A DNA stretch of 25,568 nucleotides from Fragilaria crotonensis (taxonomy: Eukaryota; Bacillariophyta; Fragilariophyceae; Fragilariales; Fragilariaceae): the NCBI GenBank assembly GCA_022925895.1, contig JAKSYS010000789.1, positions 1-25,568 of the forward strand, read 5' to 3'. Each line of letters begins with the position of its first letter. Position 1 is the first letter of the stretch. The notes beneath the pieces were generated by a model. That model made no database searches. It was not told the origin of the DNA and worked only from the letters and a program-made list of their open reading frames with translations. Below, in pieces: positions 6,944-25,080 of the stretch. A program made the translations under genes and the position numbers.

Positions 6944-9706
6944 TTATAATGTTAGTGAAGCAATGGCTGCCTCCTCGCTGCGGAGGGAGCTTTGGCATTT
7001 ATGCCATCCGTCGACAGGGCCAGAATTCAGGACGAGTTTTTCTTTACTCGGAGAACAGAGAATCCAGGAAAACGATCCGCTGTGCTGACGCTTGCCACCA
7101 TCCGTCCCAATGAACAACTTGCAAGGAATCTGTAGATATTGAAGCAGCGCTTGTTCCCCGTCACAATCTTCAAAGTAGTGAGAGGAGATCAATCGGCGCT
7201 CTGCCGGAGGTAGCTGTTGAATCCAAGTTTGGAAGGATGTAGCCGGAGCCGGAAGCGTGGCATAAGCGGACGCAGATGGGCTCATCGCCATGAAGATGTG
7301 ACAGCCTGAAATATCTGTCGGAATGGCCTGAGAGGGTATAGTTGCCGTATACCAGTCAGGCTTGGTATCGTAGTAGATCGCGGAGGTGGGAGCTGTGGGG
7401 ATGAGGCGTCGAGGAAAGTGCACTGCAATGTGCCTTTCGGCGTCCATAAGATTACGCTTAACTAAGGGGTCACTCCGGTAGAGTGCAGAGTCCCATATCA
7501 TAGCCCCCCATCGCATCATGGAATCTGCTGTCCACGAGCCAAGAGGCCTGAGAAGTTGTAGAGATGCTGTTGTTGTCGAGGGATGGAGTAGGTGCCGCAA
7601 CAGGCGGCGCCACAGGCCGCATTGATAGCTTGTTGGTTGCTCCTGCCTCGGAAAGGTTGTGCGACTGGATCGATCGGGAATCGGGTGCGCTCGCCAAGTA
7701 TATGGATGCAACATACGGCCGTCCGCGGTGGTAATATCGCTGACAGTTGTAACGCCGAGGAATATCCGGACCAGATTCAAGTCGATCAATTCCTGCCGCT
7801 TTAGGCCAAGTGTCATAGCAGTTTCCATGAGCATTGTGTCGCCTTCGCGAGAAATAGTCGGTAGACGGTTACTTCGGACGTGGAGGGAAATGTGATATTC
7901 AGCACAGAACCGTCTAAGTCCAAGGATCCAGCAGTCCGTGAGGTATGGCAAGGGACTCTGGGGCATTGTAAGTAGATCATAGGAAACGCCAGCCTCCACT
8001 TGAAGATGTCGAAGCGAGATGATCATTACCTGCCCAACTCTGTGTTTAGTTCCAACGTAGTCAAGCAGGGATTGAATATGCGTTAATCCCTGCTCAACTC
8101 TGAGATCGAGGAGACCGCACCCAAATAGAGAAAGTGGAGCAAACGCCACTGCGTGGGGGTAATGTCGATTGTATCCAAGTTTGTTGAGGATGCTAGCGGT
8201 CATGAGCGATTGTACTCTGTGGAGTTCGACCTTTGACATTGGCGTAACGGGGAGAGAATATCTCACAGAGGGAAGGTAGAATGTGTCATAGAACTTCCTT
8301 GATAGGACCGGAGTGAGCGAGGATTGGCGAAGCCTGCGTGCCATCCCGTCGAACTTGATCCGCATGGTAGCCGCATGGTATGCAAAGGATCCCATAAAGT
8401 TCATATGAACGCCCAAGCCTTTCACTTCTGTGGCATTGGAATGTTGGCGGATGATGTGGTGTTCAGGGTTGGAACCACTTGTCATAAGGAGTAGCGGGTC
8501 AGCTGATGTCATGGGAAGAAGGCGTGGACGCCCTTTAATCCAGTGCCAATATTGCAAAGTCCACGAACACTTCGCAAGATTTAAACTGCCGCCCGAAATG
8601 TGAAGGAGCGATTCCCAAAGTTGACCAGCTCTTCGGATTTGCTCCACGAGTTCTTCGATAGAAAGAGATCCTGAGCTGTCCAAGATGCCTTGGTTGGTGT
8701 CATCAACAAAAGCGCCAACTCGCCACTTTGTACGGAGGTCGTTCCACGGGTCTGAAAAATCGAGTCCAGGAATCTCGTCTTCATCGGAGATACGGTCCAG
8801 CGCATTCAATAGAATAACCACAAGGCCCAGCCAGATGGCTGGGGAAGCGCCACTGCCTTGTCCGGTGCCGAAAAGAGGTTCCGTTTCTGATCCCGTATAT
8901 GCTTGCGAAGCTGTCCCGTATGCATGTTTGACCGAGTATTGCATCGTCCGCAGTGTCTCCGCTTGACATTTAACGGCCATCTTTGGCATCCCAAGGCGAC
9001 GGCAAGCGATCATCCCCAGGGATGTAATAATTCTGTCATAACAGCCAGTTGCATCATTATCCATATGGGCACTATTAGCTCGTGTTTGTCTAATTAAGTC
9101 TTTTTCCAGACGAGCAAAGTACAGGGCGTCAGTTGTCATGCGACGCGGGCGTGACCCATGCTGTTGGTCATTGAGTGCCTGGCTTCGCTCGGCATTTTTG
9201 ACCATTCGCCTCCCGTAGATGATTTTTAGAAACAGATTGTAGTCGGCTTCAAAAAGATGAATCACCCGTAGACGTGTCAGAAAGGGGCGTCCAGCGTCTT
9301 TCTCGATGAGCGGAGTCACCGAGTGCGTCCAGCGTTCAGGAGCAAAGCCATTAGCGATGGGTAGATTCAAAAGTTGAGTATGAAGGTGCGCAGTATCATC
9401 GTCGAGGATTGCCGTGCGATAGTGCCCAAGATGGCGACCAGAGGGAGATGTCGAGGTTGATTCTTTCCATTCTTTGACGGTGCGGATGAACTGCTCTACA
9501 GAGATGGTTGTAGAGATAGGTTTCACTGAGGCCGGCCGCCTGCATTCTTCCAGAAACACTTGGAGTTCACGCCGCATCGGGAGACCAAGATATTCGACAC
9601 AGGCGCCCTCTACAATGGCTGTGGCAGGTTCAGTCAGACCGTCGTATCCAACAAGATCGAATAGAGCACCATGACCGAATGGGTGTCCTTGGCTTGGCGA
9701 AACCAT
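6944..9706 (-). CDS. Retrotransposon ORF2: reverse transcriptase and start of RNase H
   Basis: A 920-codon frame. The reverse transcriptase shows PSGRHLGHYR (88-97), motif A MDNDATGCYD (215-224) with both aspartates, motif B GTGQGSGASP (280-289) and motif C AFVDDTN (332-338) with the paired aspartates. The connection and thumb follow. From about residue 865 an RNase H domain begins, with its first Asp in IGTDGGK (D869) and its Glu in SEEAA (E911 or E912). The frame is interrupted by TAA at 6944-6946 yet continues in the same frame (LDELTAYHQIDV, then LYVDSTSA with the third catalytic Asp). The first residues overlap a frame that reads REWFRQAKDTH; loss of one base in the G run 9681-9683 explains the switch. 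The chemistry is intact at the RT active site; the ORF as a whole is broken. Confidence 0.92.
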   Translation of the reverse strand: MVSPSQGHPFGHGALFDLVGYDGLTEPATAIVEGACVEYLGLPMRRELQVFLEECRRPASVKPISTTISVEQFIRTVKEWKESTSTSPSGRHLGHYRTAILDDDTAHLHTQLLNLPIANGFAPERWTHSVTPLIEKDAGRPFLTRLRVIHLFEADYNLFLKIIYGRRMVKNAERSQALNDQQHGSRPRRMTTDALYFARLEKDLIRQTRANSAHMDNDATGCYDRIITSLGMIACRRLGMPKMAVKCQAETLRTMQYSVKHAYGTASQAYTGSETEPLFGTGQGSGASPAIWLGLVVILLNALDRISDEDEIPGLDFSDPWNDLRTKWRVGAFVDDTNQGILDSSGSLSIEELVEQIRRAGQLWESLLHISGGSLNLAKCSWTLQYWHWIKGRPRLLPMTSADPLLLMTSGSNPEHHIIRQHSNATEVKGLGVHMNFMGSFAYHAATMRIKFDGMARRLRQSSLTPVLSRKFYDTFYLPSVRYSLPVTPMSKVELHRVQSLMTASILNKLGYNRHYPHAVAFAPLSLFGCGLLDLRVEQGLTHIQSLLDYVGTKHRVGQVMIISLRHLQVEAGVSYDLLTMPQSPLPYLTDCWILGLRRFCAEYHISLHVRSNRLPTISREGDTMLMETAMTLGLKRQELIDLNLVRIFLGVTTVSDITTADGRMLHPYTWRAHPIPDRSSRTTFPRQEQPTSYQCGLWRRLLRHLLHPSTTTASLQLLRPLGSWTADSMMRWGAMIWDSALYRSDPLVKRNLMDAERHIAVHFPRRLIPTAPTSAIYYDTKPDWYTATIPSQAIPTDISGCHIFMAMSPSASAYATLPAPATSFQTWIQQLPPAERRLISSHYFEDCDGEQALLQYLQIPCKLFIGTDGGKRQHSGSFSWILCSPSKEKLVLNSGPVDGWHKCQSSLRSEEAAIASLTL

Positions 9707-9941
9707 TCCCTATTGTACCGAGTGAGTTCCTCTTCGATGGCATCACAGTCGATAAGCGTTGTATATTCAACCGATGTTTTGTCAGCCTGTGCCATAGCAA
9801 TGAGTTGAGTGGCAGAGACGTGCCCATTCGCATCGCAGAACTTAGAAGCCACTTTATGATTCTGAACTCCAGAAGGGACAAAAGTTTTGATAGACCCCAG
9901 CATGCCTCTCCTGCATGGACGCATGGATGACGCTAAAGGGC

Positions 9942-11651
9942 TCATGTTTTCGATGTTAATAAGGCGGTCAAGCCGACGAATCTTTGTTTCATTTGCGCTG
10001 CGAGCGCCAGCTTTGATTTCCTCGGGAGAGAGTGTAAGCTGTGGTATCGTTCAAGAGTGCCCAAGAGATGTACTGCGCGATGATCATACGCAGCATTGCG
10101 AATTGTGCGGAGCAGTTTAATGGCCTGTTTCCATCTCTGTTTGAGAGTTACCACGTCCGAACACTCGTCATCATTGAGAGAGATGTTGAGGGACTTGGTT
10201 CTAGCAAGTAGACTTGCCAGAGCAGACCGGAGACATACATTGCTTTCAACTTCTTGCAAGCGAAGGTGCCAGTAGCGTGCAGTCAATCCAGCTTCTCGCA
10301 GTTTCGGAGACCATGCGTATTTCCCACTTGGCCGACGAGCTTGTTTCTCTGCGTGAAGCATTCCTCTTGTGACATCGCGATCAATTGCATCAAAGCTTTC
10401 TTTACATTGCTCTGGTGTGAGAGTGGACGCCACTGTTGTTAGATCTGCAACACGATCCCATAAACGATGGTCATCCGCATATTGCTTAAAAGATTCAAGA
10501 TAGCGGTCCACCGACGGTTGATCTTCTGACCGAAGTGCTCTCGCTTTGGGTGGCGCAATTTTTTCGACCGATCCCATGAGTGATGTGAAGTCCAGATCAA
10601 TAAAGATGCCCCTGTGTTTGGAGAAAATACCATTATCATATGCAATGTATCCCGCATTCCGGATGACCTGAACGATAGCAGTTGATCCTAACATGTAGTC
10701 AATGCGTCGACCGGTTCCATATTTGTACGTTGCGGTGGGATCAGAAGGTCCGAGAAGATGTAGATCTGTAAGTGTGCATTCGTCGATGAGATGTGCTATG
10801 CCACAGGTTGTGTCCTGGCCAAGTATCTCATTTGCATCAAGAGAAACAATTACTTCGTGGCCCCTGGATTGCAGATTGTTCACAAAGGTGACCAAATCGG
10901 TGATAAACTGCCTTCGTACATTTGGTTTGGAGACCCCTTGAGATAGTAGGAGAGAGTGCTGTTGATCGAAGAAACCAAAGCCTCCAGAGGGTTGCTGGCG
11001 TGGGCTGCGGTACGCCGTGATAATGGCAAGAAGCTTTCCTCGTTTTCCCAAGTAACAGAGACCCGACCATCGTCCAAGGCCCGAGGGATCCACCAGAGGT
11101 GTACCCGTGCTTCGAGTAGCCCATCGGTCTGCTGTTGTCATAAACGTACCGCCTGGTTGGTATCCACTAGCAGAATCAGGGGGAAGCGTGCTGGAGGAGA
11201 AGGCACTGCGTGACGTGCAGAAGTGTTTGCCGATAGGGCGTTGGAGACTTTGACGGACTATCGGATTGGAGAAATCAAGTCCCGGATCTGCCCAACAGAA
11301 GGTACCGATCTTGAGTTGCGCCATACTTGACACATATAGTGCAATTTCGTCGGCGTCGTTCCTTAGCCCGTCGATGTTCTGAAAGTATATGCGATGAAGG
11401 TCTCCAGGGTCGTCATGGATGGAGTCACCCCATGTGTTGTCGTCTTCCCTGCAATGATGTTCGGAGGGTGCAGAGGTGAAAAAATTAAACAGAGTCTGTG
11501 CAGTGGGCGCCGCAGTTTCTTTTTCTGCCAGTGCGTTGACTGGCGTGAGAGAAGGAGACGGATTCTGCAGACGAGTCGATGAGGCACGAATCGTGTCACT
11601 CCCGAGAGTAGCAACAATCTGTGCCAGCGCTAGAACTGGGAAGACTAACAT
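9942..11651 (-). CDS. Retrotransposon ORF2: APE-type endonuclease segment
   Basis: A 569-codon frame. Residues about 88-355 show the order of motifs of the exonuclease-endonuclease-phosphatase fold used by LINEs to nick target DNA: QNIDGLRND (91-99), ITAYRSP (211-217), VSLDANE (269-275), RIDYMLGS (316-323) and SKHRGIFIDLDF (344-355). At the place where a catalytic Glu is expected after the second strand the sequence reads CWADPGLDF. The Glu therefore seems replaced by Asp, or I have misplaced the motif. The C-terminal 200 residues are a basic linker. The frame ends at TGA 9942-9944, but the sense continues in the -1 frame (INIENMSPLASSMRP) to about 9684. That suggests one lost base near 9979-9980. 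The start is the ATG at 11651; the true N-terminus may be fused to ORF1. Confidence 0.85.
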   Translation of the reverse strand: MLVFPVLALAQIVATLGSDTIRASSTRLQNPSPSLTPVNALAEKETAAPTAQTLFNFFTSAPSEHHCREDDNTWGDSIHDDPGDLHRIYFQNIDGLRNDADEIALYVSSMAQLKIGTFCWADPGLDFSNPIVRQSLQRPIGKHFCTSRSAFSSSTLPPDSASGYQPGGTFMTTADRWATRSTGTPLVDPSGLGRWSGLCYLGKRGKLLAIITAYRSPRQQPSGGFGFFDQQHSLLLSQGVSKPNVRRQFITDLVTFVNNLQSRGHEVIVSLDANEILGQDTTCGIAHLIDECTLTDLHLLGPSDPTATYKYGTGRRIDYMLGSTAIVQVIRNAGYIAYDNGIFSKHRGIFIDLDFTSLMGSVEKIAPPKARALRSEDQPSVDRYLESFKQYADDHRLWDRVADLTTVASTLTPEQCKESFDAIDRDVTRGMLHAEKQARRPSGKYAWSPKLREAGLTARYWHLRLQEVESNVCLRSALASLLARTKSLNISLNDDECSDVVTLKQRWKQAIKLLRTIRNAAYDHRAVHLLGTLERYHSLHSLPRKSKLALAAQMKQRFVGLTALLTSKT

Positions 11652-12621
11652 GGGTACCCTCCACTGGAGCCCATGTCTTCGTTGTATTGAAGGCTCAAGT
11701 TGGATGTTGATGGTGACTTTGTTGGAGTAGAGGCGGCGCGTCGTTTCAATGGATTGGTGGCTTTCTTTGGCGTACCAAGAAGAGCCAAGACTGTGTTTCC
11801 TTGGCTCTCCGGAGGAAACAGTTGAACACCCTGCATGCCGTGTCCCTCAGATGGAAGTGATTGATGAGATGCTGGTTCGACCCAGAGTGGATCTTCATGA
11901 AGCGGAATAATGCCAGTAGGGGTTGGTGACATAGGAGGAGAAAGTCGCTTGCTGACCATGATGGCCTTGAACATGGCCTTGATTTCTGCTAGCGACGAAT
12001 CGAATTTGTCCAGTCGACTATGAGCAGAGGCTGCAGTGAGCCCAGAGTGCGAGGACGAGCGAGATACCTTCGACTTCGCAGACTTTGACATTTGTGACTC
12101 AACTGAATTTGTCCCAGACGGGAGATCGAGTTGAGCCTCGAGGATGGCAATTTTTTTGCGTTGATTGATCTCGATGGATGACATTTTTTCTTTCGGGGCG
12201 CCTTTCGCTTTCGAGAGCAGAGTTTCCTGAAGAGGTTTGCGCCATGCAATGGACCCTTTGGAGTGTGTTGTCCCATCGATGGTGTCACCTCCAGTCAGAG
12301 ACGAGACTGGAGAGAATAGACTAGAAGTGTCATCCGTAGGAGCGTCCTTTTTCGTCATAATCCTTTTTGCCAGAATCGTGTCGATGTTTTTTGTAAAGAC
12401 GGTCGTTGGAATGTCTGGATGGGTCACGAGGCTCTCGAATAAAGTTTCACTGCGTGCGACAGGGTCGGATTTCGACGTGTCCAATAATTCTGAAGTTCCA
12501 CCTTTGCCTGGAAAAGTGACGCCGAAGGAACCACTAATACTGTTTTTCCTTCATTGGTACCACCGTTCTCAAGATCCAACTCCAGAGATTCGCCGTCAGG
12601 TGATAACAGACTTTTGCCCAT
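11645..12621 (-). CDS. Retrotransposon ORF1, C-terminal segment
   Basis: Two overlapping frames are combined here. The first runs from 12621 (MGKSLLSPDGES) to about 12487. There a one-base deletion passes the sense to the second, which reads LDTSKSDPVARSETL and then runs to TAG at 11645-11647 (279 codons from 12484). The sequence is Lys/Ser/Pro-rich and likely disordered, with PTKSP-type stretches and a possible short helix (EINQRKKIAILEAQL). Its stop overlaps the ATG at 11649-11651 that opens ORF2. No known domain was recognised. Confidence 0.55.
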
Positions 12622-12758
12622 TGGCGAGGCGTGCGACTGACGGTTTCACCAGAATCAAAAACTCAGTGACTTCAGTATCAATCGCTGCAGATGCCGCAAA
12701 CAGAAGATGAGAAACGTCGTCAAGGTATTCATTATGGACCTTGTAGATTCTCTGATAG

Positions 12759-13871
12759 TCATGTTTGAGGTCTGCTTGGCTCCAAGTGCAAGACGGAGAT
12801 AAAGATTTCCGGGTGGAGACCCTCGCCGCATAAGGCAGTACTGAGATGTTCTGCTAGTTGTGTTGCCGTAGATTTACCACAACGTACGGTGAGGATAGTG
12901 ATACGGCTGCCTGTCGGGTTGGAATGCCTGAGTTTGATGTCAAATACCGGCGCATCAGGAGGAAGGACCTCATTACAAAGATACTTCAAGTACTGTCCGC
13001 GATGAGTCACTGATGCATCTTTTAGTAGGATGTCGCCTACATAGGTGAGTTCGCCTTGTGAAGCTGGAACTGCAGATGGGTCAAATGTCAGGTTTTCACC
13101 GCGTTTGGCAATAGCCAATACCTTCGATTTCATTACGTGCGAGAACTGAGCCCCAGTAGCACATATGCGAAAGCTAAAATAGAAGCATTGCTCTTTTGCG
13201 ACTGGTACGACACGAATGCTGAGGAACTTTGATAGCTGTGCCGGGTCGATGTCAGGTGTTGCATCCATTTGATCAACTTGCCATTCCATCATCCATGAGT
13301 GATCGGTATTAAAGCAGGAAAGGATCGGTGCAAGGCGCCGATGCATTGTTGCCGTAGATGACCGAAGCTCATTGAAATCTTTTGGAGCCCAGCGGGTTTC
13401 AACACGAACCACGTGCTTAATCGCTGATGGACGTCGAACTTGGTGAGTCAGTGATGGCTGATCTGTCGCCTTGGGCTGGTCGGTGGCAGTAGTCGTACTA
13501 CTGCTGGACGTGACGGTAGCTCCAGTAATAGAGCTTGTTGTCGTGGAAGACGATTTGTTGCGTTTCGTCGAATAAACAACTGCATCTGCTTGTGTGGTAG
13601 GAGGTTCATCAGAGGAGGACTGAGATGATTCCTGTAAGACGATTGCAGGCGACTCTGTCGCTGCGGTGCTTAACTTCAAGGTTGCAGCAGTACGAAGCGA
13701 GGAGATTATCTCTTTGTCACTGCTGTCAGCAGAGTCAATATCCATAGCGGTGTTTTGTTCCGCGGGCTGCTTAAGGCCGAGGAGGTATGAATCCATGTCG
13801 TTCAGAGACAGATCGAAGAAGCTGGGATGAGTCTGCGCGAGTGCAGTCTCAACAGCAGAGATTGTTTGCAT
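12759..13871 (-). CDS. Retrotransposon ORF1, middle segment
   Basis: A 370-codon frame. Residues 40-140 are a low-complexity Ser/Thr-rich linker. Residues from about 150 to the end form a globular-looking domain (RRLAPILSCFN, then WMMEWQVDQMD). The end contains GSRITILTVRCGKSTA. I recognise no standard ORF1 fold, RRM or CCHC motif. After the TGA at 12759 the sense continues in another frame (DYQRIYKVHNEYLDDV) for about 140 bp with no clean start. This points to a 1-2-nt indel rather than a true end. Confidence 0.6.
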   Translation of the reverse strand: MQTISAVETALAQTHPSFFDLSLNDMDSYLLGLKQPAEQNTAMDIDSADSSDKEIISSLRTAATLKLSTAATESPAIVLQESSQSSSDEPPTTQADAVVYSTKRNKSSSTTTSSITGATVTSSSSTTTATDQPKATDQPSLTHQVRRPSAIKHVVRVETRWAPKDFNELRSSTATMHRRLAPILSCFNTDHSWMMEWQVDQMDATPDIDPAQLSKFLSIRVVPVAKEQCFYFSFRICATGAQFSHVMKSKVLAIAKRGENLTFDPSAVPASQGELTYVGDILLKDASVTHRGQYLKYLCNEVLPPDAPVFDIKLRHSNPTGSRITILTVRCGKSTATQLAEHLSTALCGEGLHPEIFISVLHLEPSRPQT

Positions 13872-14223
13872 CAGAAACCATCAATTTTGCATGATTTTCC
13901 AAGTGATTGCGATAATAACGAGCCAATCGAAGATTTTCGGCTTCGACTGATTCGTGGGCTTTGTGAGAGTAATATTCATCGGGACTAACGAAGTCCTGAA
14001 TACCGAATGAAACATAGGTGTTCCAAGAGTTGACAGACAGATTTTTGTATGCTCTGTTGTAGTTTTTGATCCGTAGCGCAATCACAGAAGGGTCGATGGT
14101 TTTAAAACCAATAAGGGTGGGGGGAGCCTTGTACCCTAAAGGAGGTAGGGCGGACAGAGCAGCAGCAGTTTGGGGATGCAGTGAACCCTTAGTACCGCGA
14201 CTGGATCGTTTGGGATCCACCAT
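13849..14223 (-). CDS. Retrotransposon ORF1, N-terminal segment
   Basis: This 124-codon frame starts at an ATG at 14223, in the favourable context ccaccATGG, 93 bp inside the 5' end of the element. It is rich in Arg/Lys and Tyr/Asn, with no zinc knuckle. It ends in TGA at 13849, overlapping by 23 bp the next frame, which begins at 13871. The overlap is either a real restart or, more likely in a eukaryote, a frame break in one longer ORF1. By position it should be the RNA-binding or nucleoprotein part; that is inference from LINE organisation. Confidence 0.6.
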   Translation of the reverse strand: MVDPKRSSRGTKGSLHPQTAAALSALPPLGYKAPPTLIGFKTIDPSVIALRIKNYNRAYKNLSVNSWNTYVSFGIQDFVSPDEYYSHKAHESVEAENLRLARYYRNHLENHAKLMVSDANNLCC

Positions 14224-14316
14224 GGTGGATGGCTGACAATTTCGGGTGCAGATTCACGAAAAAACGGACGGACAGACAGAACGTTTCTAAAAATCTCTAA
14301 GCTAGGAATTGTGTGA

Positions 14317-14332
14317 AGAATGAATTGTTGGT
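14317..14332 (+). repeat. Target-site duplication, right copy
   Basis: AGAATGAATTGTTGGT, identical to 5242-5257. It flanks the 5' end of the minus-strand retrotransposon, 93 bp before the first ORF1 ATG. Confidence 0.85.
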
Positions 14333-14860
14333 GCTCAATCATGATTCACACAAACCGACTCTAGCTTCATACTCTATCTTCACGAATAAGAGCCCAATTT
14401 TAAATCTGAAACGACACACCTTGAGAAAAGTTGACCTCGAATAATGTTGGATCCGTGACCTCCGAACAAACGTACCTGATAAGAAAGCAAACAAAATAAT
14501 GGAGAATGAATTTCGATTTTAATCCTGATTCGCACATGAACCAACTCCGCATTACATACTGCATCTTCCCTCGCAATAGTCCCATTTTGAATCTAAAGCA
14601 ACAGACATTGAGAATTGTTGCCCTCAAGGAAAGTCGGACCACAGATCTTTGAATATTATGTGAATGTCGAGGAAGAAAACAGCAGGATGGAGCATGAATT
14701 TCAGTTTTCAGTCTCTGCATTTCATACTGTATCTTCCCTAATAATCATCAAATTGTGAATCTGAAACGACAGATGTTGAGAATAATTTATTCAAAGAAAA
14801 TGTACCGAAGACCTTTTAACGAATGTACCTTTTGAGGATGCAAACAATGAAATGATTACA
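14317..14860 (+). repeat. Degenerate ~165-190-bp tandem array, right part
   Basis: Continuation of the array at 4925-5257 after the inserted element. The anchor (variants tctatcttc, tgcatcttc, tgtatcttc) occurs at 14373, 14560 and 14727, spacing 187 and 167 bp. The phase across the insertion is preserved: the left part ends at agaatgaattgttggt and the right part restarts with the same bases followed by gctcaatcatgatt, as in an uninterrupted unit. These repeats therefore predate the insertion and are not LTRs. Confidence 0.85.
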
Positions 14861-15084
14861 ACAGAGGGAACAATCCTTTTGTTGGTTGAGTTCCTTGACA
14901 GGATCAAGCATATCTTGCCAGTGTTGGATGTGTATAGCGTATAGCTAAATGCTCCGTGCTGAGCACGAAGATGAATGCAGCTTCAGATTCACATGAATGA
15001 TCATACAGTAAGTAGACGCACAGTCCAAACAGCCAACAGTGTGGGTCATTTCCGTCATCAGTCTCAAGTTTCAACTCACTCCAG
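14861..15084. other. Short intergenic gap between the two mobile elements
   Basis: About 220 bp between the end of the tandem array and the Harbinger target site. No gene, RNA or repeat is evident. Confidence 0.4.
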
Positions 15085-15087
15085 TAA

Positions 15088-15115
15088 GAGCATCCTCCAA
15101 GGGACGATATCAAAC
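15088..15115 (+). repeat. Harbinger terminal inverted repeat, left
   Basis: The first 15 bases match the right end perfectly, followed by three scattered differences and the shared word GATATCAAA. An imperfect direct copy (AGCATCTTCCAAGG) lies further inside at 15162-15175. Confidence 0.9.
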
Positions 15116-15117
15116 GT

Positions 15118-15310
15118 TATCAAATGCCCGACCGGCGCGCAAAGTCGAGATTTTCGAAAAAAGCATCTTCCAAGGCTCGATTATCAAATATTTGACCTCC
15201 CGCCGGAGGCAACGCGCCGGCAGGGCATTTGATAAATTTGATAATGCATTTGGTAATATCAAATCTCCCGTGATTTGATAATACCAAATGATATCAAATC
15301 TGATATCAAA
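15118..15310. repeat. Harbinger subterminal repeats and nested inverted repeat
   Basis: 15118-15139 and 15213-15234 form a 22-bp inverted repeat with 20 matches, around a GC-rich core (CCGGCGCG). Between and after them, ATCAAA or TTTGAT occurs about nine times up to 15310, often as TATCAAAT or ATTTGATA. The density is far above the surroundings. In this superfamily the Myb-like protein or transposase binds such subterminal words; that role here is inferred. Confidence 0.7.
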
Positions 15311-15438
15311 TCACCCAAATTCATGTACAACGTACATCGAAGTTGTACTCTCGTATTGTGCTCTGCGTGAAAACCTGTTGCGCCATGCACACAGTTGGTG
15401 ATTCGCATGATTTTGTAGAACCATCAAGATCAACAACC

Positions 15439-16438
15439 ATGACGGACGATGCTGGCTCGTTCACGGCACCGGGTGCGGAGAAACAACTTAGCAAGAGAGG
15501 ACCAGCCTTCACAAGTGCAGAGGATCTCATTGTGGCGAGCTTTTATTGCCGCCTCTGAGAATGCAATCTGCGGAGCGCATCAAAGGGTCGCGTCTTCAAA
15601 GCCCACATGTTCGAGCTCTACAAAGACATGATTGCGGATGCAACCAAAACAAACCAGGCTCTCCTTGAGCAATCCTCTCACGCAACTAGAGAGTACATTA
15701 AAAGGAGTTGGAAATGCGTTTCCTCTTCGTTCCCCAGAGTCGATCTTCAACAGATTCAAGCAGCAGATTTCGGCGGAGGTCATGAAGTATATGGGCATTA
15801 CCGAGACAACAGAGATGTCTTCGGGTTGGAGCATGGACGACCACAAGACAGCCTGCCTAGGATTATTCAAAGACAGGTATGGTAGGGCATTCGATTTCTT
15901 TCCATGCTATGAATACCTCAAGGACAAGAACAAGTTCTCGTCGTTCAGGACAAAGTGCGACGAGGACAACGGTGGAGGAAAGAGACCAATTGGAAAGAAA
16001 CAAGCACGGCAGACAGAGCGCGATGCAAAACTCATCAAGGCAATTGTCTCTGAAGTGGTTGTGAAAAAGGAGAAGACGTCTCCTGCAAGTGGCGGTGGTG
16101 GTGAGTCTATTCTATCTGAATTTGATACTGCTATAACGACTGGTGCTCCGGGAAACGTTATGGGCGATGTTTTACAAAACATTTCGAACGTGATTGCAAA
16201 CGTAGGGACAGCAGTCCTTGAAAATATGAAGGCTGAGCAAGACATTAGGTTTCTTCAATCTCTGGACACACCGGATCGAAAGATGTATGCCAAGGAACAG
16301 TTGGCATTGCGAATGGCTGAGACTCGCCAGAAGAGGCGTCGCATAGAGTTCTCTCGCAGCTGCGTTATCGTTCTGTCTTCTGCCGAAAAGTCTACCAATG
16401 GTGAGGATCATGAGGGCGATGAGGAGCAACATACTTGA
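15439..16438 (+). pseudogene. Harbinger SANT/Myb-like DNA-binding protein, frameshifted
   Basis: The protein starts at the ATG at 15439 (an in-frame ATG at 15385 is possible). It opens with KRGPAFTSAEDLIVA, a SANT/Myb-like helix start. The sense then changes frame three times. Near 15538 it passes to AFIAASENAICGAHQ, near 15588 to FKAHMFELYKDMIAD, and near 15703 to GVGNAFPLRSPESIF. The last frame runs to TGA at 16436-16438. Later come GGKRPIGKKQARQ, resembling the NAM-associated C-terminal domain found in these proteins, and a basic-acidic helical tail. Family members bind subterminal DNA and bring the transposase to the element. The breaks at 15538 and 15703 fit 2-nt losses and that at 15588 a 1-nt loss in AAA. 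No intron fits such short gaps. The gene is either decayed or damaged by assembly. Confidence 0.8.
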
Positions 16439-16635
16439 GAACGAGAACAGGATTTAACATTACGAGAGCAACTCACAATACGAGGTCGTAGTAATGATTG
16501 ATAAGAATGACGACAACAGTTAACAAACAGCAGCAACATGGAGCGAGACGTAGTAGAATTACTATTACTAGAATGTAGAAGCAAACAACGACAATAGTGC
16601 TACTTCTAGTACTAGTAAGCAAGTATGATTACGTT

Positions 16636-18151
16636 TTACGCTTCTATGTGATCCATTATAGAATCGCGGAGCCTGAGATGCTCGTCTAAGTCGTATAAGC
16701 ATTCCCAACGTCGCTGCACATACTGGAGCCGCAACGATTCAAGAATCCGACGTTCGCGATCTGTCATCGTGTCATCTTGCTGGTTGTTTGTTCCATAAAG
16801 TTGAGCATGAAGATGCATTTCTGCAGCTCGTCGGTCAACGTATACTTGCTCTGCTTCGTCGGCAACTCCACCTGCTACCGGCGTGTCGTCGCCTCGAGCA
16901 AGTCCTGGAAATGCATAGAAGTCCTCGGATTCTTCTTCGTCTTGTGCCATTCGAGATGCTACCATCATGTTGTGAAGGCACAGACAACACTTCACGACAC
17001 TAGCAATGTTGCTTACGTACCACAGCTCAATTTTTCCAACGAGCAAATGGAATTTACGTTGGAGGACTCCGAAGGCTCGCTCAACATCCTTTCGTGCGGA
17101 TTCTTGCCACACTGCATACCGGCATGCTCTCCTCCCAACTGGCTCCTGCAAGGTTTTGACAAATCTACTCAATTCTGGGTAGATACCATCGACAAGAATC
17201 CAAAGACGATTGAAAACCTTTTCGTCACCGATTGTAAACTCAAAGTCCACGTCTCGTGCAAAGCTTCCGTCCAGGAATGCCTTCAACAAGCAGCTCCGGT
17301 TCCAAATGTTTCTGTCGTTCAAGGATCCAGGCCAACCAAAAGAGTGATGCCAAAACCACAAGTTGTGGTCAGCCATTGCTTCCAAAACAATGGTTGGTTT
17401 GCCCAACTTTCCCTTGTTCGCTCCCTGCCATGCCACTGGACAGTTTTTCCAGCCGACATGCATACAATCAAGTGACCCTACTACCATTCCAGCAACGCCG
17501 TGACAAGCCTCATGTAAGGCAGAAAGTCTCCGAGCATCACTGCGGGTCATCTGTCTCCCATACACACTTTGTAACTCATCTTTGGTCGACACAATTGTAG
17601 AAAACTTTATCAAGCTTCGACGAGCCAAAGTCTCGCTCATTTGGAAGTAATCCATGAACGCAGACGGGGAGCAGCCATATGCAAGCTGCTTGATTGCAAC
17701 AAGCACCTTTGCCACCGGAGATATATTGTACCGTCCGGTGACATCCTGTATGTTGGTGAAGAAAGGGTCGGCTTTGCCACAGACCTGAACAAAGAGATTC
17801 AACAATTGATTTTGTGACACGAAAGATTCTTTCGAATTGTCTGTCATCAAAGAGAGGTGTCGGCGAGAAATAATCACTTTCAATAGCACGTCTTGCTCGT
17901 TCGTAGGAATATGATGAAAGTCGTGGTTTTTTCTTCATCCGTTCATCGTTGTCACCGCGGCTGATGCGAATCGTCCTCAAAGCAATTCGTGCAATTTGTT
18001 CAGCTTTAAGCTTCCGGCTGTCGTCAGCTCTCTCTTGGTGGTCTTGATATGTTGTCTCTTCTGCATACCACAATAACAAAATAGGAATCAAAGCTGACAC
18101 CACCAACAACATGAATGCTGTTGCAGCACTTTGCTGCGGAGCGGAGTTCAT
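16636..18151 (-). pseudogene. PIF/Harbinger DDE transposase with one frame break
   Basis: The ATG at 18151 opens a frame with a hydrophobic stretch near residues 13-28 (AFMLLVVSALIPILLL), a basic helical region and FDDRQFERIFRVTKS. Near 17785-17810 the sense shifts frame to FVQVCGKADPFF and continues to the stop at 16636. The catalytic domain shows the DDE triad in context: D in GSLDCMHVGWKNCP, D in GSLNDRNIWNRS and E in KDVERAFGVLQRKF. Between the first two lie GKPTIVLEAMAD and HHSFGWPGS, all signature of the PIF/Harbinger DDE_Tnp_4 or plant-transposon family. It cuts and pastes the element at TWA sites. The C-terminus is Gln/Arg/Glu-rich. The shift is +1 or -2 nt. The gene converges on the Myb-like gene. 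Confidence 0.88.
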
Positions 18152-18262
18152 TGCGGTCCAATTCGAGCGTTCGACCCTACTGTGAAATTGTGATTTTTGT
18201 TGGGGGGAACTCGGCAAAGCTACTGCAAGCTACTGCAAAGCTACGACGAGATGAGAAGCACG

Positions 18263-18291
18263 CTGGAGTAGCATTCGTTTTGCTACTCCAG
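18263..18291. repeat. Perfect 11-bp hairpin upstream of the transposase
   Basis: CTGGAGTAGCA at 18263-18273 and its exact reverse complement at 18281-18291 enclose a 7-base loop. It lies about 110 bp upstream of the transposase ATG on the minus strand, in the presumed promoter or 5' UTR. Any role is unknown. Confidence 0.6.
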
Positions 18292-18505
18292 AGTAAAACT
18301 TCGTACGTACCGTACCGTCCCTATTCCAACGATTTGATATTTGATATCATGATATTTGCAATATGAATCTCCCGCCTTGAAAGTTGCCACTTAAAGAACT
18401 TTAATTTCGAGCAGGCCAGCCATTTGGTTAAACCGTCAGAGAACGCTACGGTTGTGAAAGATACTGTTTTCGTCACTATTACGTTATTTGATCCGGAAAT
18501 TTGCG

Positions 18506-18533
18506 ATTTGATATCATTCCTTGGAGGATGCTC
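18506..18533 (-). repeat. Harbinger terminal inverted repeat, right
   Basis: Reverse complement of 15088-15115 with about four mismatches in 28; the outer 15 bases are identical. It is followed directly by TAA at 18534-18536. Confidence 0.9.
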
Positions 18534-18855
18534 TAATAGATTGGTACGACGATAGGTCTGTTTGTTGAAACCACAATATCAACACACAGTACCTACGTGC
18601 CAATCAGACAACGATACAGTACTGCAGTCAACACTGGGAGATTAAATCGCTTGTAAATCGGAAAAATGAATTAGAATGAGACTATCATTCGTTTCCGAAG
18701 CTGGTCCGTTTACAATTGACCTTTTCGTTCACACGTGATACGTTCTCAATCTTGCCGGCACTCAATCGTGACCGCTTCCGTTTCTCCTTAATGTCTTGTT
18801 TAGACTCCACGGTTCTCCATCCGGTATTCGTTTCGTCGCCGTTCGTCCTCTCACT

Positions 18856-19583
18856 ATGTCCGGTGGTCATTCCGTCAGTTATATTTTATTCAACACTGTT
18901 ATCTGCTCCTTTGTAGTGTCGTGTTAATTCCCTCTTTTCATTACGTCAACACACAAGCATTCTGTCAGATGTATGCCGACGTAATCTCTCCTAGGTATGG
19001 TGTCACCTCTCTTCAACAGAAGAATGAAATCGACAATAACCATGCAGAGCGATGCTGTCACGAGACTCAGTCGGTATCTGAGGAGCAACTCTGGAACAGT
19101 CCCTCGTTCTCGGTCATTCGTCGTTGGTATAAGGTTCGTACTCAGTTGAAAGCCATGGAAGGTAAGATTCAGCAATGGTGCCAGAACGACACGCAGGCAA
19201 TCACAGATTTTGGATTTCTTGCTCCTTCTGCCTTTGGGTTTAGAAGTGCAACCATTCCCTGCAAAAAGTGCGCTTGCAGTACATGCGATGCCCTCGCCGT
19301 GCTGGAAGAAACGTGCAAGACTCTCATTATTAGTAAGCAGCAACTTGCCAATGCGGAGAAGGAGCATGCTGAAGCAAAGAACGAACATGCTGAAGCTGAA
19401 AACAGAATGATGCCGAATTATCGCTCCGCCAAGAAAGACAGGGCGCTGGAACTGCTTGGTAAAATTCTGGCCGACAAAGCCGAGCTGGTCGCCAGCCATC
19501 TCAATTTGATTTCCAAAGATGCCAATTTGGAGCATTGGGGGCTGCTGGAATGGAACGTCTCTTGTAGCTTTAATCGATCTTGA
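18856..19583 (+). CDS. Unrecognised coiled-coil protein with one probable intron
   Basis: A short exon (ATG at 18856, MSGGHS) can join across a 95-bp intron, 18874-18968 (GTCAGT...TGTCAG), in frame to a second exon that begins ATG TAT GCC at 18969 and runs to TGA at 19581-19583, about 210 residues. Visible are a Trp/Arg-rich region, a metal-binding-like C-K-K-C-A-C-S-T-C cluster near 19261-19286, and a charged coiled coil around 19330-19410 with a repeated H-A-E-A motif. Near the end, after LEHWG at the G run 19537-19541, another frame reads SLVALIDLDLAKVSDD and stops at 19651-19653. It may be the true C-terminus if the run is miscounted. No family was recognised. It follows the transposon by about 320 bp. 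Exon 1 is the weakest part of the model. Confidence 0.5.
18874..18968 (+). other. Probable intron, 95 bp
   Basis: It starts GTCAGT and ends TGTCAG, with a T-rich middle, and joins two in-frame coding stretches. The size suits short diatom introns. Support is by splice-site appearance and frame only. Confidence 0.4.
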
Positions 19584-19653
19584 TTTGGCCAAGGTTTCCG
19601 ATGACCTTTCAAATGCGAGAGTCAATCTCCACGTCGGATCCAGCTCATCTTAG

Positions 19654-20334
19654 TTTGGCATCCTAGCCATCCTTCTCAACTGGAATTGATAAGCTTGACG
19701 ATCACCAGGTATTGCTTGATCCATTCTTGGAAAATCAGAAGCGCGTTCTTTCGGAACATCAGCTATGCTAAAGAGCACGGATTTGAATTATCCCAAGAAG
19801 ATGAATGCGACAGTCAAAGGCATCAATGAATGGAACATTGCCAAGTCTACGGGTTGATCTACGCCAAACTTCTATGCGCCTGGTTGTGAACGCCAGGAAA
19901 GGGACTGATCACAACCCAGTTTGTATGTCATGCCAAAATTTTTCTGGGGCGTGGTGTTAGCACCGCTCTATTGCGAGCGAGTGAATGCGAAAGTGTGCAC
20001 TAACTACTTAGTACATCAGGTGTTTAAATTAATGGTGGATTGTACACCTTATGATACACCTTTTCATTTGAATTGTTAGGACACGATTCCAATGCACCAA
20101 CCACAGGTAAAGCTGCGCGATATTGTGGTCAAGCCAAGCTTAATGATTTGCATTCATGCTGCCAAGGGCTCACAAGGACTGAGTGGTTTTGTTGCTGAAA
20201 GGTGATGCGAACGTGCATGCTATTGCGACATGCGAGTCTGTCTGACAAGCTCTCTAGACTAAATGTGGAAGTATCGGACAAACAAGGAATTTACTTCTAA
20301 GAAACTCTTTGCAAATTTACGGTTGAGCAACAAT
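19654..20334. other. Intergenic stretch, nothing recognised
   Basis: About 680 bp between the coiled-coil gene and the kinase gene's poly(A) signal. I see no open frame of note, tandem repeat or RNA gene. Confidence 0.4.
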
Positions 20335-20340
20335 TTTATT
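20335..20340 (-). terminator. Putative poly(A) signal of the kinase gene
   Basis: AATAAA on the minus strand, 43 bp past the stop codon at 20383. Position and sequence fit a polyadenylation signal. Confidence 0.5.
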
Positions 20341-20382
20341 TAGCCAATCTATGACACCTACGTAGGGCAGAGTAGAGTGGAG

Positions 20383-22769
20383 CTAGATTGACGCGCTTGT
20401 TCTCAGGTCGGCAACGAACACTTTTCGAAACTCCTCAAACGACACGGTCCCTGTGTTAGTCAGGTCCATGATATTGAACAACTCTGCAATCTCATTGTCT
20501 GTGTATTCGGGATCCATATCTCGCATAATCTTCGCGACGGACTCGCGTCCGAAACCCATTACCGTCCACACCGACAGCAAGGAAGGCTTCCATCGGATTG
20601 TTGTACGGGAACTCTTTTTCAATCTGTGGACGATGGCCTTCTTCAAATCGCGTCGCAAGCATAATTCACGGAGTGATGCCTTTGCATCGGGATTCAAATC
20701 CATGAGTCGGCGGTACTCTCTTCCTGCCATGACTTGGCAAACACAGGAATCTGATTCACATCGGGCGGTACAGTTTCGCTTCAATCCTGTGATTACCGAT
20801 TGCTCACCACAAATATTGCCTTTACTGGCCGTGAAGACATGCTCACCTTCCACTGTGACCTTGACGTCACCGCTGTCAACAATGTAGAGAGTATCCCCAT
20901 TCGCCCCCTGGCTGTATATCACGTCGCCTTTCTTGAAGGTTTGTATTGGATTATTCTGGAGAGTAAGGATCATCTTTGCTCTGTTTCTCCTTCGGATGCG
21001 ATCCTTCTCCTTGACTGCAAGCATCAAGCCCAGTTCGGATGATTGCAGGTACTTTGAAAGTATTCTCGACTTATTTCAATCACGTGGACTGGTGTCTTGC
21101 ATCGAATCGTACCAGACCGAATACTCTTTGGATGGAGCAATGCACCTTCACCAAAGAAATCGCCTTGGCTTCGTTCAGCTCTAGATCCATTTGAAGTCGT
21201 GACTTCAATCGTCCCCGAATTGATAATGTACATGTGGTTTCCAATGTCGCCCTCATTGTAAACAATATGGTTCTTAGGGAAGAATTTGTGCTTCATGTTC
21301 TCAGCAAGCAGACTGCGAAATTCAGCCATTGATATTGATTCATCGTGGTCCGTATCATCATGTGTCTCTCCATCAGTATGGTGTAGCAGCGGCAAGAAAC
21401 CGCCATTCTTGGCGTACATTGTTTTGAATGACTCATCAATTAACGATGTTTGTCGCCGAGTGTGGTTTTCGTTATCGCTCCAGTTCACGACATCCTGCAG
21501 AAAATTAGCTTGCAGCCTAGTCTTCATGGCGCGAATACGGCGCAATCGTTCGTCTGATCCAGTAATGGCGGCGGTAGGCGCAGTCGTTCCGTTGACCCAT
21601 GGATGCTCCAACATTTCTTCAGCCGTCATCCTTTTGCTGGCGTCAGGTTCAATGAGTCGTTCCAGTAGTTCTTTCGCACTCGCTGACAAATGAGCCGTCA
21701 TGGGTGAATCACGAATAGGTGGAGGCACGCCACTCTTGATGCGAGTTTCCAATTCCTCATCGGTTAGGTTTCCCGTGAGAACAAATGGATGTAGGCCCAC
21801 GAGCATGATGTAGAGTATTACGCCAAGAGCCCACATATCCATCGGCGGTTCAAAGGGTTCCGATGCTTCCTTCTTATGAAAGGTTTCGGGTGGAGCGTAT
21901 GCAGGAGTGAATGCCGTACTCTGGTTATCTCCGCCTGGTATCTGCGTGCAGCCAAAGTCAACTAATTTGACAATCGAATCTGACGCCTGTTCGGAGCTCA
22001 GCATGAGGTTTTCTGGTTTTAAATCAGCGTGCACCACACCAATGCCATGGAGAAAGGCCAACGCGGATGCCACTTCCCGAACGAGTCTCGCGGCATCTGC
22101 TTCCGAGTAGGCTCCATTCTTGATTAAATGATCAAACATCTCACCACCTGATATGTAATCCATGACAACGTGGAAGTAATCCTCGTCTTCAAAATAGGTA
22201 TGAAGTGATACGATATGAGGATGTCCTCCGAATTGTAGTACATATTGCATAGCCCTCATTTCTCTTTGAAAGGAGTCCCGATCTGTGTAGGATCGGCTTA
22301 TGCTCTTGACAGCCACCTGTTCCCCCGTCTTCTTGTCGACGGCCAGTTGTACCTTGGCATACGCACCCTCGCCCAATCGTTTGCTGGAAAGTGTAAAGTG
22401 AGTCTGAAGCATGTTTTCTTCATCCGTATTTTCACCGTCATTGTGAATACCTCGTTCGCAAGACGAGGCCATGGATAACAACGAAAATGATGGAAAGTGC
22501 ATTTGGAACCTGGACAATGCGGACGCAGTAGCCGTAGTCATTTCATCACGACGTTTTTGCTGTTTCAGAGCAGCATTACAGTTGATCCGCTGCCGTAATG
22601 ACAGCAGTTTTTCCCCATCTGTGTCGATGCCATCATTAGCGGAATCGTTGTCGATCCACCAACACAAGAGCGCTGCGGCAGTAGCAGCTGCTGCTGACGC
22701 TGTCCAAGGAATTGCCGCAAGAGGATCGTGATACATCCGATTCCTTCGTGGAATCAAATGTCGATACAT
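20383..22769 (-). CDS. Protein kinase with EF-hands and two cyclic-nucleotide-binding domains
   Basis: Starts at ATG 22769. Residues 17-37 are hydrophobic (a possible membrane anchor or targeting segment). The kinase domain runs from about 125 to 392: GEGAYAKV (133-140), VAVK (K155), HADLKPEN (247-254), DFG (271-273), APPE (292-295), DMWALG (311-316), closest in style to CaMK/CDPK kinases. HAD replaces HRD and APPE replaces APE. An EF-hand loop DTDHDESISMAE spans 472-483. A first cNMP-binding domain (about 494-575) has GE at 540-541 and R551. The frame ends at 21024-21026. One missing A in the run 21052-21054 would carry it on into a 214-codon frame with a second cNMP domain (GE 74-75, R84) and an EF-hand DLTNTGTVSFEE (188-199), stop at 20383. 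The whole protein is about 795 residues. A role sensing both Ca2+ and cAMP or cGMP is inferred. It is probably a host gene. Confidence 0.85.
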
Positions 22770-23827
22770 TGTATATTGTATCGAGCGCAGTGATGTGAGG
22801 TGTGAGGCGTGTGTCGTATATTCAGTATAATAGATAATAGGCGATCGGCGCCAATGGGTTCGTTCCTTTCTTGTCTTTTTGGACGACTATGAGCGTACCA
22901 ATACTAGAGTTGGAGCACACCTGGCACTGAAGTAATCCGCGCGTGTTCGATGAAATCTAGCGTATAGCTTTAGCGTCACAATGAAGATGAAGTAATTAGG
23001 AATCCAAGCCGAGCAATCCAGCACGTAGCGTCGAGCCTGGAGAAGATTCACCCAGTACGATAGGACGATACGACGATTATGAATGCAAAGGTGAAAGTTG
23101 ACTGACACCACCACAACACCAAAAGGCAAACAAAAGAACAAATATGAATTGGTTCTTGTTGCAAATGTGCTCTTCTGCGTGGGCTCAGTGTTCTTACGGA
23201 TTGTGCAATGTGGACGACAATCAGGAGAACGGATCGATGTCGTTATTTTTTATGCTCATACCGATTTGTTGGATGTCCTGTTGACTCGTCGGTTTTGTGC
23301 GGTGATGAGTCGTCTGGTCCTAGTAGAGAGTTCTACGAGGAATGCTCGTAGTGGTGCAAAGCATGTCATCCCTCGTATGCATACTTGCAACTTGCATACA
23401 AGTCGTACAGTAGATAGGAGGTTTCTTTGTGATTCGTGGATGGGCAGGTGGTGACATCGCACATTCCTCAATGCGTGGTCTGTCGTCGGCCGTATCATCA
23501 TAGTTTGCGCTGCTTGTATGTCATACGCTTGTGCTGTGCAGGATCCGATTAGAATGCAAGGAAATGACGTCAACATTATCGTCACAGTAATGAAGCTGCG
23601 TGGGACCTTCACGTAGAGCACAAGTGACACGCGTAGGCCGAAGAAAACACGGAATCTTCGTTTCTCATTTTTCATGGGTTTTCCAATACGCCGGCCCAGC
23701 CTCTTCCACGCCAGCCCGTTAATGTTTGAATGTTGTTATGCGTGGAACAGCATGCTTGAAACGACTCTCCGTTAGTACCGAATGATTTCCATTGCCATGT
23801 GTTATGTTTGCATATGATATTAGCCCT
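22770..23827. other. Intergenic stretch upstream of the kinase gene
   Basis: The first 100-200 bp must hold the kinase promoter and 5' UTR; no certain core element is seen. Several open frames of 80-140 codons occur on both strands (for example 22887-23141 minus, 23256-23675 minus, 23098-23454 plus). They overlap, lack recognisable motifs, and some lack a proper start. I call none of them. Confidence 0.4.
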
Positions 23828-24475
23828 GTGCCGCCACTCGACGGCGGCATTTGCGGATTTTTACCAGTAATGCCGCCACTCGTACAACAGGGCGGCATTT
23901 GCGGATTATTTTCTACCAGTAATGCCGCCACCACTCGTACAACATGGCAGCATTTGCGGATTTTCTACCAGTAATGCCGCCACTCGTACAACAGGGCGGC
24001 ATTTGCGGATTTTCTACCAGTAATGCCGCCACTTTCGTACAACAGGCGGCATTTGCGGATTTTCTACCAGTAATGCCGCCACTGCAACAGGGCGGCATTT
24101 GCGGATATTTTCTACCAGTAATGCCGCCACTAGTCGTAAACGGCGGCGGCATTTGTGAATAACTATGATAATTCATCACACCTCGATCCATTTCAAGCAA
24201 TGTGGTATGAACTACAATACTAATCAGTGTCTCTACCAGTAATGCCACCACTCGTACCCGACGGCTCATCTTGTGGATTATTTTCTACCAGTATTAATGC
24301 CGCCACTTGTATACAATGGCGGCATTTGTGGATTTTTTTCTACCAGTAATGCCGCCACTTGTATGCTGTGGCGGCATTTGCGGATTATTTTCTACCAGTA
24401 ATGCCGCCGCCTTCACAAATGGCGGCATTTGCGGATTATTTTCTACCAGTAATGCCGCCAATTGTTCGGAGACAT
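23828..24475 (+). repeat. Hairpin minisatellite, direct-orientation arm
   Basis: TACCAGTA occurs eleven times (23862, 23914, 23966, 24015, 24065, 24113, 24234, 24286, 24341, 24393, 24444), mostly 48-55 bp apart. Each unit has AATGCCGCC, a variable 8-14-base loop, then GGCGGCATT and TTGCGGATT-TTTTC. Every unit can therefore fold into a short hairpin. A 121-bp gap after 24113 holds unrelated sequence. Loops differ (ACTCGTACAACAG, ACTTGTATGCTGT, GCCTTCACAAAT and others), while the stems are conserved. Confidence 0.9.
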
Positions 24476-24507
24476 TATATATCTTAGTTTCATCAACAAG
24501 AAAGAGC

Positions 24508-24580
24508 AGCAATGCCTAGGTTAGTAGGTTACAAACTTGTTTTTTGAAACAAGGTCCGGGGTTCGATCCCCGAAAAATGC
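24508..24580 (+). ncRNA. tRNA-like Pol III promoter relic
   Basis: GGTTCGATCCC at 24560-24570 fits the B-box consensus of tRNA genes. TAGGTTAGTAGG at 24517-24528 fits the A box except at one position. A 6-7-bp stem (CTTGTT/AACAAG) lies between them. The T stem pairs for only three bases in canonical register and the acceptor ends barely pair. It is thus not a working tRNA, but could be a tRNA-derived SINE piece or decayed tRNA. The antisense frame gives GDRTPDL, a peptide commonly produced by antisense tRNA sequence. It sits in the spacer between the two hairpin arms. Confidence 0.35.
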
Positions 24581-24612
24581 TAAAAACCTATTTCTTGTGA
24601 TAATCAAAATTC

Positions 24613-24740
24613 GGAAACTATCGTGATGCGTAGTACAGTTGTGAAAAAGGACACCGCTAGCTGTGACATTGTTCATGGTAGCAGCAGATCCGAGATCAAC
24701 AGGGAAACCATCATGAGAAGGAGTACAGTTGTGAAGAAGC
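24613..24740 (+). repeat. Direct repeat in the spacer of the fold-back array
   Basis: agtacagttgtgaa occurs at 24632-24645 and 24722-24735, inside a looser match of nearly 40 bp (24613-24650 and 24703-24740) at 90-bp offset. It is the only further structure seen in the spacer between the two hairpin arms. Confidence 0.6.
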
Positions 24741-24774
24741 AAGAACAAGGCTGCTGTCTCGACGTTGCCATCAT

Positions 24775-25080
24775 TACTGGTAGCACACATTTTGCAAATG
24801 CCGCCATTTTGGCGCAGTCAGCGGCATTACTGGTAGCGTATTCCCAAATGCTGCCATTTTCAAAGTTGGCAGCATTACTGGTAGCATTTCATTTGCAATT
24901 GCCGCTGTTTGAAAAGTCGGTGGCATTACTGGTATAATCCGGAAATGCCGCCTTCGTGAAGGAGCGGCGGCATTACTGGTGAAAATAATCGGAAATGCCG
25001 CCACAGCATACAAGTGGCGGCATTACTGGTAGAAAATTATTCGAAATGCCGCCATTTACAAAGTTGGCGACATTACTGAA
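24775..25080 (-). repeat. Hairpin minisatellite, inverted arm
   Basis: The same unit as 23828-24475 on the opposite strand: TACTGGTA or close variants at 24775, 24828, 24876, 24927, 24974, 25024 and 25074, with AAATGCCGCC...GGCGGCATTACTGG units. The stretch 24993-25036 is an exact 44-base reverse complement of 24336-24379. Neighbouring units keep the mirrored order (ACTTGTATGCTGT loop next to a CTTCAC loop). The two arms are thus a large inverted duplication. Confidence 0.88.

Follow-up and report, generated by a model that had tools for sequence, protein, structure and literature searches.

How many genes does this locus hold, and which signals would act on the kinase that it encodes? The locus lies in a 25,568-nucleotide stretch of Fragilaria crotonensis DNA (contig JAKSYS010000789.1), hereafter called the window, in which a broken coding region carries a protein kinase domain, EF-hands, and cyclic-nucleotide-binding (cNMP) domains. 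The reading that we favor, with a probability of roughly 0.55, is that of a single gene that encodes a non-RD Ser/Thr kinase of the CAMK group, in which two PKG/PKA-type cNMP domains, arranged in tandem, separate the EF-hand lobes of a calmodulin-like domain, and which would be regulated by cyclic nucleotides and, in some of its paralogues, by Ca2+.

One gene, read through in a second copy

In the 62.1-Mb assembly, the window corresponds to contig C768, to which a second contig, C428, is nearly identical (15.5 kb aligned at 98.9%). In C428, a single stop-to-stop frame of 835 codons spans the same sequence as the broken gene of the window, and from the ATG equivalent to position 22769, which in the translation of the window is the first in-frame ATG past the upstream stop, it encodes a protein of 796 residues (P0002). 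Over the coding region, the two copies differ by one substitution and three indels (at 20551, 20615, and 21053). A first-pass annotation of the sequence had claimed one gene and had placed its suspicion at 21052-21054; the open frame of C428 supports the claim, and the suspicion was exact, one base being missing there relative to C428. An intron at 21053 was considered and rejected, as an additional T suffices to keep the frame of C428 open at this place.

From 16500 to 23800, comparison of the two contigs gives 14 indels against 2 substitutions, and 10 of these indels fall in homopolymer runs of two or more, a pattern that we infer to be that of long-read consensus error. Because of this excess of indels, C428 was taken as the correct reading and the breaks in the window as probable consensus errors of a duplicate contig. 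Further to the left (9521-16499), substitutions are commoner than indels (54 versus 31), for which reason C768 and C428 may be haplotypes. The three frame-breaking indels of the window copy could alternatively mark two genes or a decayed pseudogene. We consider this very improbable and reject both readings on the grounds of the C428 copy, which is open throughout, and of the paralogues, which join the same domains (see below); the indel-dominated, homopolymer-rich differences between the contigs likewise speak against it.

Domain order and its conservation in four paralogues

Read from its sequence, the protein consists of an N-terminal hydrophobic stretch, a CAMK-group kinase, a junction helix, an EF-hand lobe, two cNMP domains, and a second EF-hand lobe (Table 1). 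A Pfam search of P0002 (hmmscan) returned the kinase domain and two cNMP_binding stretches (protein E value of 1.2e-34), and the window’s own two frames return Pkinase at 1.6e-59 and cNMP at 2.2e-18 and 3.5e-14. The order of kinase, EF-hand, cNMP pair, and EF-hand given in the first-pass annotation stands as an order of domains, except that its two EF-hand loops are really remnants of two calmodulin-like EF-hand lobes. When its domain calls were checked by HMM, the cNMP domains and the C-terminal EF-hand pair scored above the Pfam cut-off and the first lobe scored below it. A single-sequence AlphaFold2 model of the window protein (P0001) reached a mean pLDDT of 39.3 and was useless as a fold.

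Table 1. Features of the kinase gene in the window and the evidence or remark attached to each
Feature	Position	Strand	Evidence or remark
Whole coding region	20386..22769	minus	Matches one 796-residue protein in the C428 copy (L001:1359-3746, minus; P0002)
N-terminal hydrophobic Ala-rich segment (residues 17-35), after an Arg-containing N terminus	22665..22721	minus	Kyte-Doolittle
Protein kinase domain (residues 129-392), CAMK group	21594..22385	minus	Pkinase, E 3.1e-59 (P0002)
Catalytic-loop HAD (non-RD)	22023..22031	minus	
Junction helix SDERLRRIRAMKTRLQANFLQDVVNW	21480..21557	minus	Lies where CDPKs and CaMKs have their autoinhibitory junction
First EF-hand lobe (EF1 degenerate, EF2)	21288..21449	minus	Four-paralogue profile versus calmodulin; weak alone, E 0.12
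EF2 loop DTDHDESISMAE	21321..21356	minus	
cNMP-binding domain A	21040..21287	minus	End crossed by 1-base indel at 21053
Domain A cassette FGEGALLHPKSIRSGT	21108-21155	minus	
Frame break at the end of domain A	21053..21056		T run one base shorter in the window than in C428
cNMP-binding domain B	20728..20940	minus	
Domain B cassette CGEQSVITGLKRNCT	20767-20811	minus	
Two more frame breaks, window copy	20551..20620		2 bases at 20551; one T at 20615
C-terminal EF-hand pair	20416..20590	minus	PF13499, E 1.6e-12, 48 bits in P0002 (residues 728-786)
EF3 GVDGNGFLGRES	20539-20572	minus	Contains the 2-base indel
EF4 DLTNTGTVSFEE	20431-20466	minus	

Searching the genome with the window protein revealed, besides C428, at least three loci in which a kinase domain is followed by cNMP domains: C548, C99, and C283. 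A C-terminal EF-hand pair then follows in each, after two inferred introns each in C99 and C283 and past a one-base frame break in C548, and the C-terminal pairs of all four paralogues (the window gene included) exceed the PF13499 cut-off, with 39.9 to 52.7 bits. The four share 38 to 45% overall identity and the same domain order, so that order and conservation are established at the level of the encoded sequences. The N-terminal hydrophobic segment that had been reported for the window protein is present, and hydropathy is raised at this place in all four paralogues, weakly so in C548; the best 19-residue mean Kyte-Doolittle values are 1.54 for the window protein, 0.83 for C548, 2.03 for C99, and 1.95 for C283. 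This segment is possibly a membrane anchor or a targeting sequence. In a collection of viral contigs, none of nine pattern matches was confirmed as a relative; in a collection of genome contigs without eukaryotes, 2 of 44 were confirmed, both bacterial and with the kinase domain alone matched.

The cNMP pair keeps the cassette residues of PKG and PKA

The Gly-Glu and the Arg of the phosphate-binding cassette, which the first reading had seen in both cNMP domains of the window, are aligned in all eight domains of the four paralogues. Among solved structures, apicomplexan PKG is closest to the cNMP pair (E value of 3.1e-25), followed by PKA RI-beta and PKG1, while HCN channels match the pair only at about 5e-7. 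In three of the four members, the residue after the cassette Arg of domain A is a Ser. A hydroxyl group at this place is associated with a preference for cGMP.

The cassettes of the window gene deviate from the PROSITE signature PS00889: the pattern matches domain A of C548 and C99, not that of the window gene or C283, and no domain B. Divergent cyclic-nucleotide-binding domains of some kinases bind other ligands. These two points would favor a scheme in which the cNMP domains act as scaffolds, with some other small molecule or nothing at all as their ligand, and the kinase is constitutively active or regulated by its localization. We consider this scheme improbable, given that Glu and Arg are kept in eight of eight domains and that the closest solved relatives are the regulatory domains of PKG and PKA. 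Binding of a cyclic nucleotide by the pair is part of the reading that we prefer.

Two calmodulin-like lobes, decayed to different extents among the paralogues

Homology to EF-hands is clear for the C-terminal lobe and, for the first lobe, at the level of the family only. The C-terminal pair scores 48.0 bits against PF13499 in P0002 (cut-off of 30) and 29.6 bits in the window’s second frame, the lower value being due to the indels at 20551 and 20615, which lie in or next to EF3. The first lobe reaches the Pfam cut-off in none of the four members; the best EF-hand E value of the stretch between kinase and cNMP domains, taken alone, runs from 0.12 in the window gene through 0.015 in C548 and 0.0011 in C99 to 2.2e-5 in C283. 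A profile of this lobe built from the four paralogues finds calmodulin as its best match, with a whole-chain E value of 3.7e-9 that is the sum of two matches: profile positions 44-109 to calmodulin 3-77 in the N-lobe (i-E value of 0.0057) and positions 53-98 to calmodulin 85-128 in the C-lobe (i-E value of 0.0013).

Within the lobes, the loops differ in how much of the Ca2+-binding pattern they retain. The PROSITE EF-hand pattern is matched by no loop in the window gene or in C548, by two in C99, and by one in C283, where EF4 (DVDEDGGVNLEE) misses it solely through a Gly at position 7. In the window gene, EF2 alone keeps D1, D3, D5, and E12; EF3 has lost positions 1 and 12, EF4 retains D1 and E12 but carries Thr at positions 3 and 5, and the EF1 region offers no usable loop. 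As judged from these loops, the Ca2+ input of the window gene is weak, and since they are largely degenerate and matching loops occur in C99 and C283, the claim of Ca2+ control rests on the family more than on the window gene. The proposal of the first-pass annotation that a single kinase integrates Ca2+ and cyclic nucleotides therefore fits the family, in which the cNMP residues are kept, and fits the window gene less well.

It is tempting to go one step further and to regard the window paralogue as a cyclic-nucleotide-only kinase, with both EF-hand lobes as structural relics that do not bind Ca2+. The conserved residues of EF2 and a C-terminal pair that still scores 48 bits argue against this idea, as does the fact that non-canonical EF loops can bind Ca2+. 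The losses in EF3 and EF4 and the loopless EF1 speak for it, and a precedent exists in plant CRKs with solely degenerate EF-hands, for which Ca2+-independent activation is described as likely in the abstract of PMC11989534. Overall, we rate it as rather unlikely and prefer a lobe pair in which some Ca2+ response might persist.

A non-RD kinase with a putative autoinhibitory junction

The best solved relatives of the kinase domain are CaMK1, CDPK, and CaMKII chains. It contains the Lys of VAVK, the Asp of HAD, and the Asp of DFGC, with equivalents in all four paralogues. The replacement of HRD by HAD noticed in the first pass was found as described, and the Arg before the catalytic Asp is absent from all four members (HAD, HGD, HGD, and HAD). 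It is kept in each of 16 other kinase frames translated from the genome, a sample of its kinome, of which 12 read HRD and 4 read YRD (the latter being PKG frames, with C107 and C631 as near-copies). Without the RD arginine, phosphorylation of the activation loop is probably not the main switch of a kinase. The non-RD status of the family suggests, from what is known of other kinases, control by autoinhibition instead. A candidate for this role is the junction helix, into or through which the profile alignments with CDPK and CaMKII chains extend and which presumably autoinhibits the kinase.

Relation to CDPKs and PKG

With CDPKs, the family shares a CAMK-group kinase, a junction helix, and two EF-hand lobes on one chain, and the alignment with solved CDPKs enters EF1. 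The profile of kinase plus linker passes the kinase into EF1 (as far as profile position 346-357) in 17 of the 60 matches listed, 16 of which are labeled as calcium-dependent or calmodulin-domain kinases, several of them being the same protein; the highest-scoring chains with the kinase profile are those of CaMK1, not CDPKs, and the alignment of CaMKII chains likewise extends into the junction. A CDPK-type junction and EF-hand lobe C-terminal to the kinase are thus seen with the family profile, the lobe of the window gene alone staying below the Pfam cut-off. Taken together, the two lobes resemble the regulatory domain of a CDPK, except that a cNMP pair lies between them. In contrast to the four contiguous EF-hands of CDPKs, however, the lobes of the family are parted by two cNMP domains, several of their EF loops are degenerate, and the kinase is non-RD.

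The genome also holds at least six CDPK-like genes (two on C13 and one each on C55, C729, C782, and C2). In a kinase tree of 17 rows, the family forms a clade with supports of 100/100 and lies outside a separate clade of these six CDPKs (96/93). Neither a tree that joins the family with the CDPKs (p-AU of 0.169) nor one that joins it with PKG, represented by the single row C38 (p-AU of 0.167), was rejected. Of the six CDPK sequences, four begin only at profile position 201-213, so that the greater part of their N-lobe is missing, probably due to introns. Since the tree neither supports nor rejects an origin from CDPKs, we do not claim descent from a CDPK by insertion. Candidate routes are the insertion of cNMP domains into a CDPK and the gain, by a CAMK kinase, of a ready-made EF-cNMP-cNMP-EF unit.

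With the PKGs of apicomplexans and stramenopiles, the family shares tandem PKG/PKA-type cNMP domains with the cassette Glu and Arg, and a kinase on the same chain. In PKG, however, the cNMP domains precede a kinase of the AGC group, as they do in the genome’s own PKG on C38 (three cNMP domains, then the kinase), whereas in the window gene they follow a CAMK-type kinase.

A possible lever for two messengers

By analogy with CDPKs, the helix between the kinase and the first lobe would keep the kinase off, and the EF-hand lobes would hold or release this helix. A cyclic nucleotide, more likely cGMP than cAMP, would bind the inserted pair and move the lobes relative to each other, so that the helix is released. 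As such binding would alter the distance and the angle between the lobes, either messenger could act on one lever. In C99 and C283, with canonical EF3/EF4, Ca2+ would act on the same lever, which would make these two paralogues kinases with two inputs; the most that Ca2+ could do in the window gene would be to modulate the response. The hydrophobic N terminus may tether the enzyme to a membrane.

One enzyme may in this way listen to two classes of cell signal, and a kinase that physically bears both sensors would be a direct meeting place of the two messengers. More tentatively, and in our view less likely than not, these genes could form a family of diatom kinases whose calmodulin-like regulatory domain was opened between its lobes to take up a tandem cyclic-nucleotide sensor. 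The result would be a single allosteric unit for Ca2+ and cGMP together, and the paralogues would have drifted from two inputs (C99 and C283) toward dominance of the cyclic nucleotide (window gene and C548). With four paralogues in different states of EF-hand decay, the logic of the inputs is testable by loop swaps or mutations in one fold.

Related kinases in diatoms and oomycetes

We found no description of the order kinase-EF-cNMP-cNMP-EF in the literature, including the accessible parts of PMC3019232, PMC5322657, PMC13187674, PMC1266030, PMC4820453, and PMC4726125; a relative may be concealed in the tables of PMC3019232, which list cNMP binding for eight AGC and CAMK kinases. Phaeodactylum tricornutum has nine CDPK-like proteins, four of them with two or fewer EF-hands, among these Pt25067 in diatom clade III and Pt1875 in clade I (PMC13187674). 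Like the present family, the latter two are diatom kinases with EF-hands outside the canonical CDPK clade and, compared by description only, they could be its orthologues; yet the legend of Figure 1A gives them a kinase and EF-hands, and the terms “cyclic nucleotide” and “cNMP” do not occur in the main text of that paper (PMC13187674). The one CDPK-like kinase with two EF-hands reported from Thalassiosira pseudonana is possibly of the same family, the accessible text mentioning no cNMP domain for it (PMC3019232).

A cNMP-bearing CAMK kinase is not unheard of, as Phytophthora infestans has cNMP binding on eight kinases of the AGC and CAMK families (Table 2 of PMC3019232) and PMC4820453 mentions homologues of the HCN type that lack channel domains and show identity within a putative kinase domain. 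No oomycete kinase with both EF-hands and cNMP domains is described in the accessible parts of these two papers: in PITG_08008, EF-hands and a PH domain precede the kinase, and in the PP2C-cNMP proteins the kinase is inactive (PMC3019232). On comparison by description only, some of the reported diatom and oomycete kinases could be members of the family whose domains were noted only in part, and the architecture may thus sit undiscussed in databases.

Other features of the genome and the window

Two further frames of the genome carry cNMP domains in other company. On C16 (L008:1450-3147, minus), one frame of 566 amino acids joins a thioredoxin domain (E value of 4.8e-9), a cNMP-binding domain (2.2e-15), and a calmodulin-like EF-hand region whose residues 414-554 align with calmodulin 2-147; it is a further protein of the diatom in which cNMP and EF-hand domains are coupled, possibly with a redox part. 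On C436 (L009:1889-4117), a PP2C phosphatase is followed by two cNMP-binding domains in one frame without a kinase domain, resembling the PP2C-cNMP proteins that PMC3019232 reports, in its accessible parts, from oomycetes and plants. Silicon transporters, which mark the genome as that of a diatom, match the assembly 19 times, in 18 cases above the Pfam cut-off; three such domains stand in a row in one 1456-codon frame (C97:29749-33762, plus), and a frame of 1008 codons on C771 contains two or more.

Elsewhere in the window, two long frames (6944-9709 and 9942-11846, minus) look like the reverse transcriptase and endonuclease of non-LTR retrotransposons and had no Pfam match at an E value of 0.01; a transposase-like frame lies at 16636-17934 (minus; Plant_tran at 7.5e-54, DDE_Tnp_4 at 5.7e-14). 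A repeat of 102 bases underlies a Cys-rich frame at 1-2172 (plus) and also appears as 306-base units that are 97% alike. About 1.1 kb upstream of the start of the kinase gene, at 23843-25078, arrays of a repeat of ~50 bases occur in both orientations (GGCGGCATT... and ...AATGCCGCC), and the indels between C768 and C428 are densest at these arrays, with 17 in 23801-24990.
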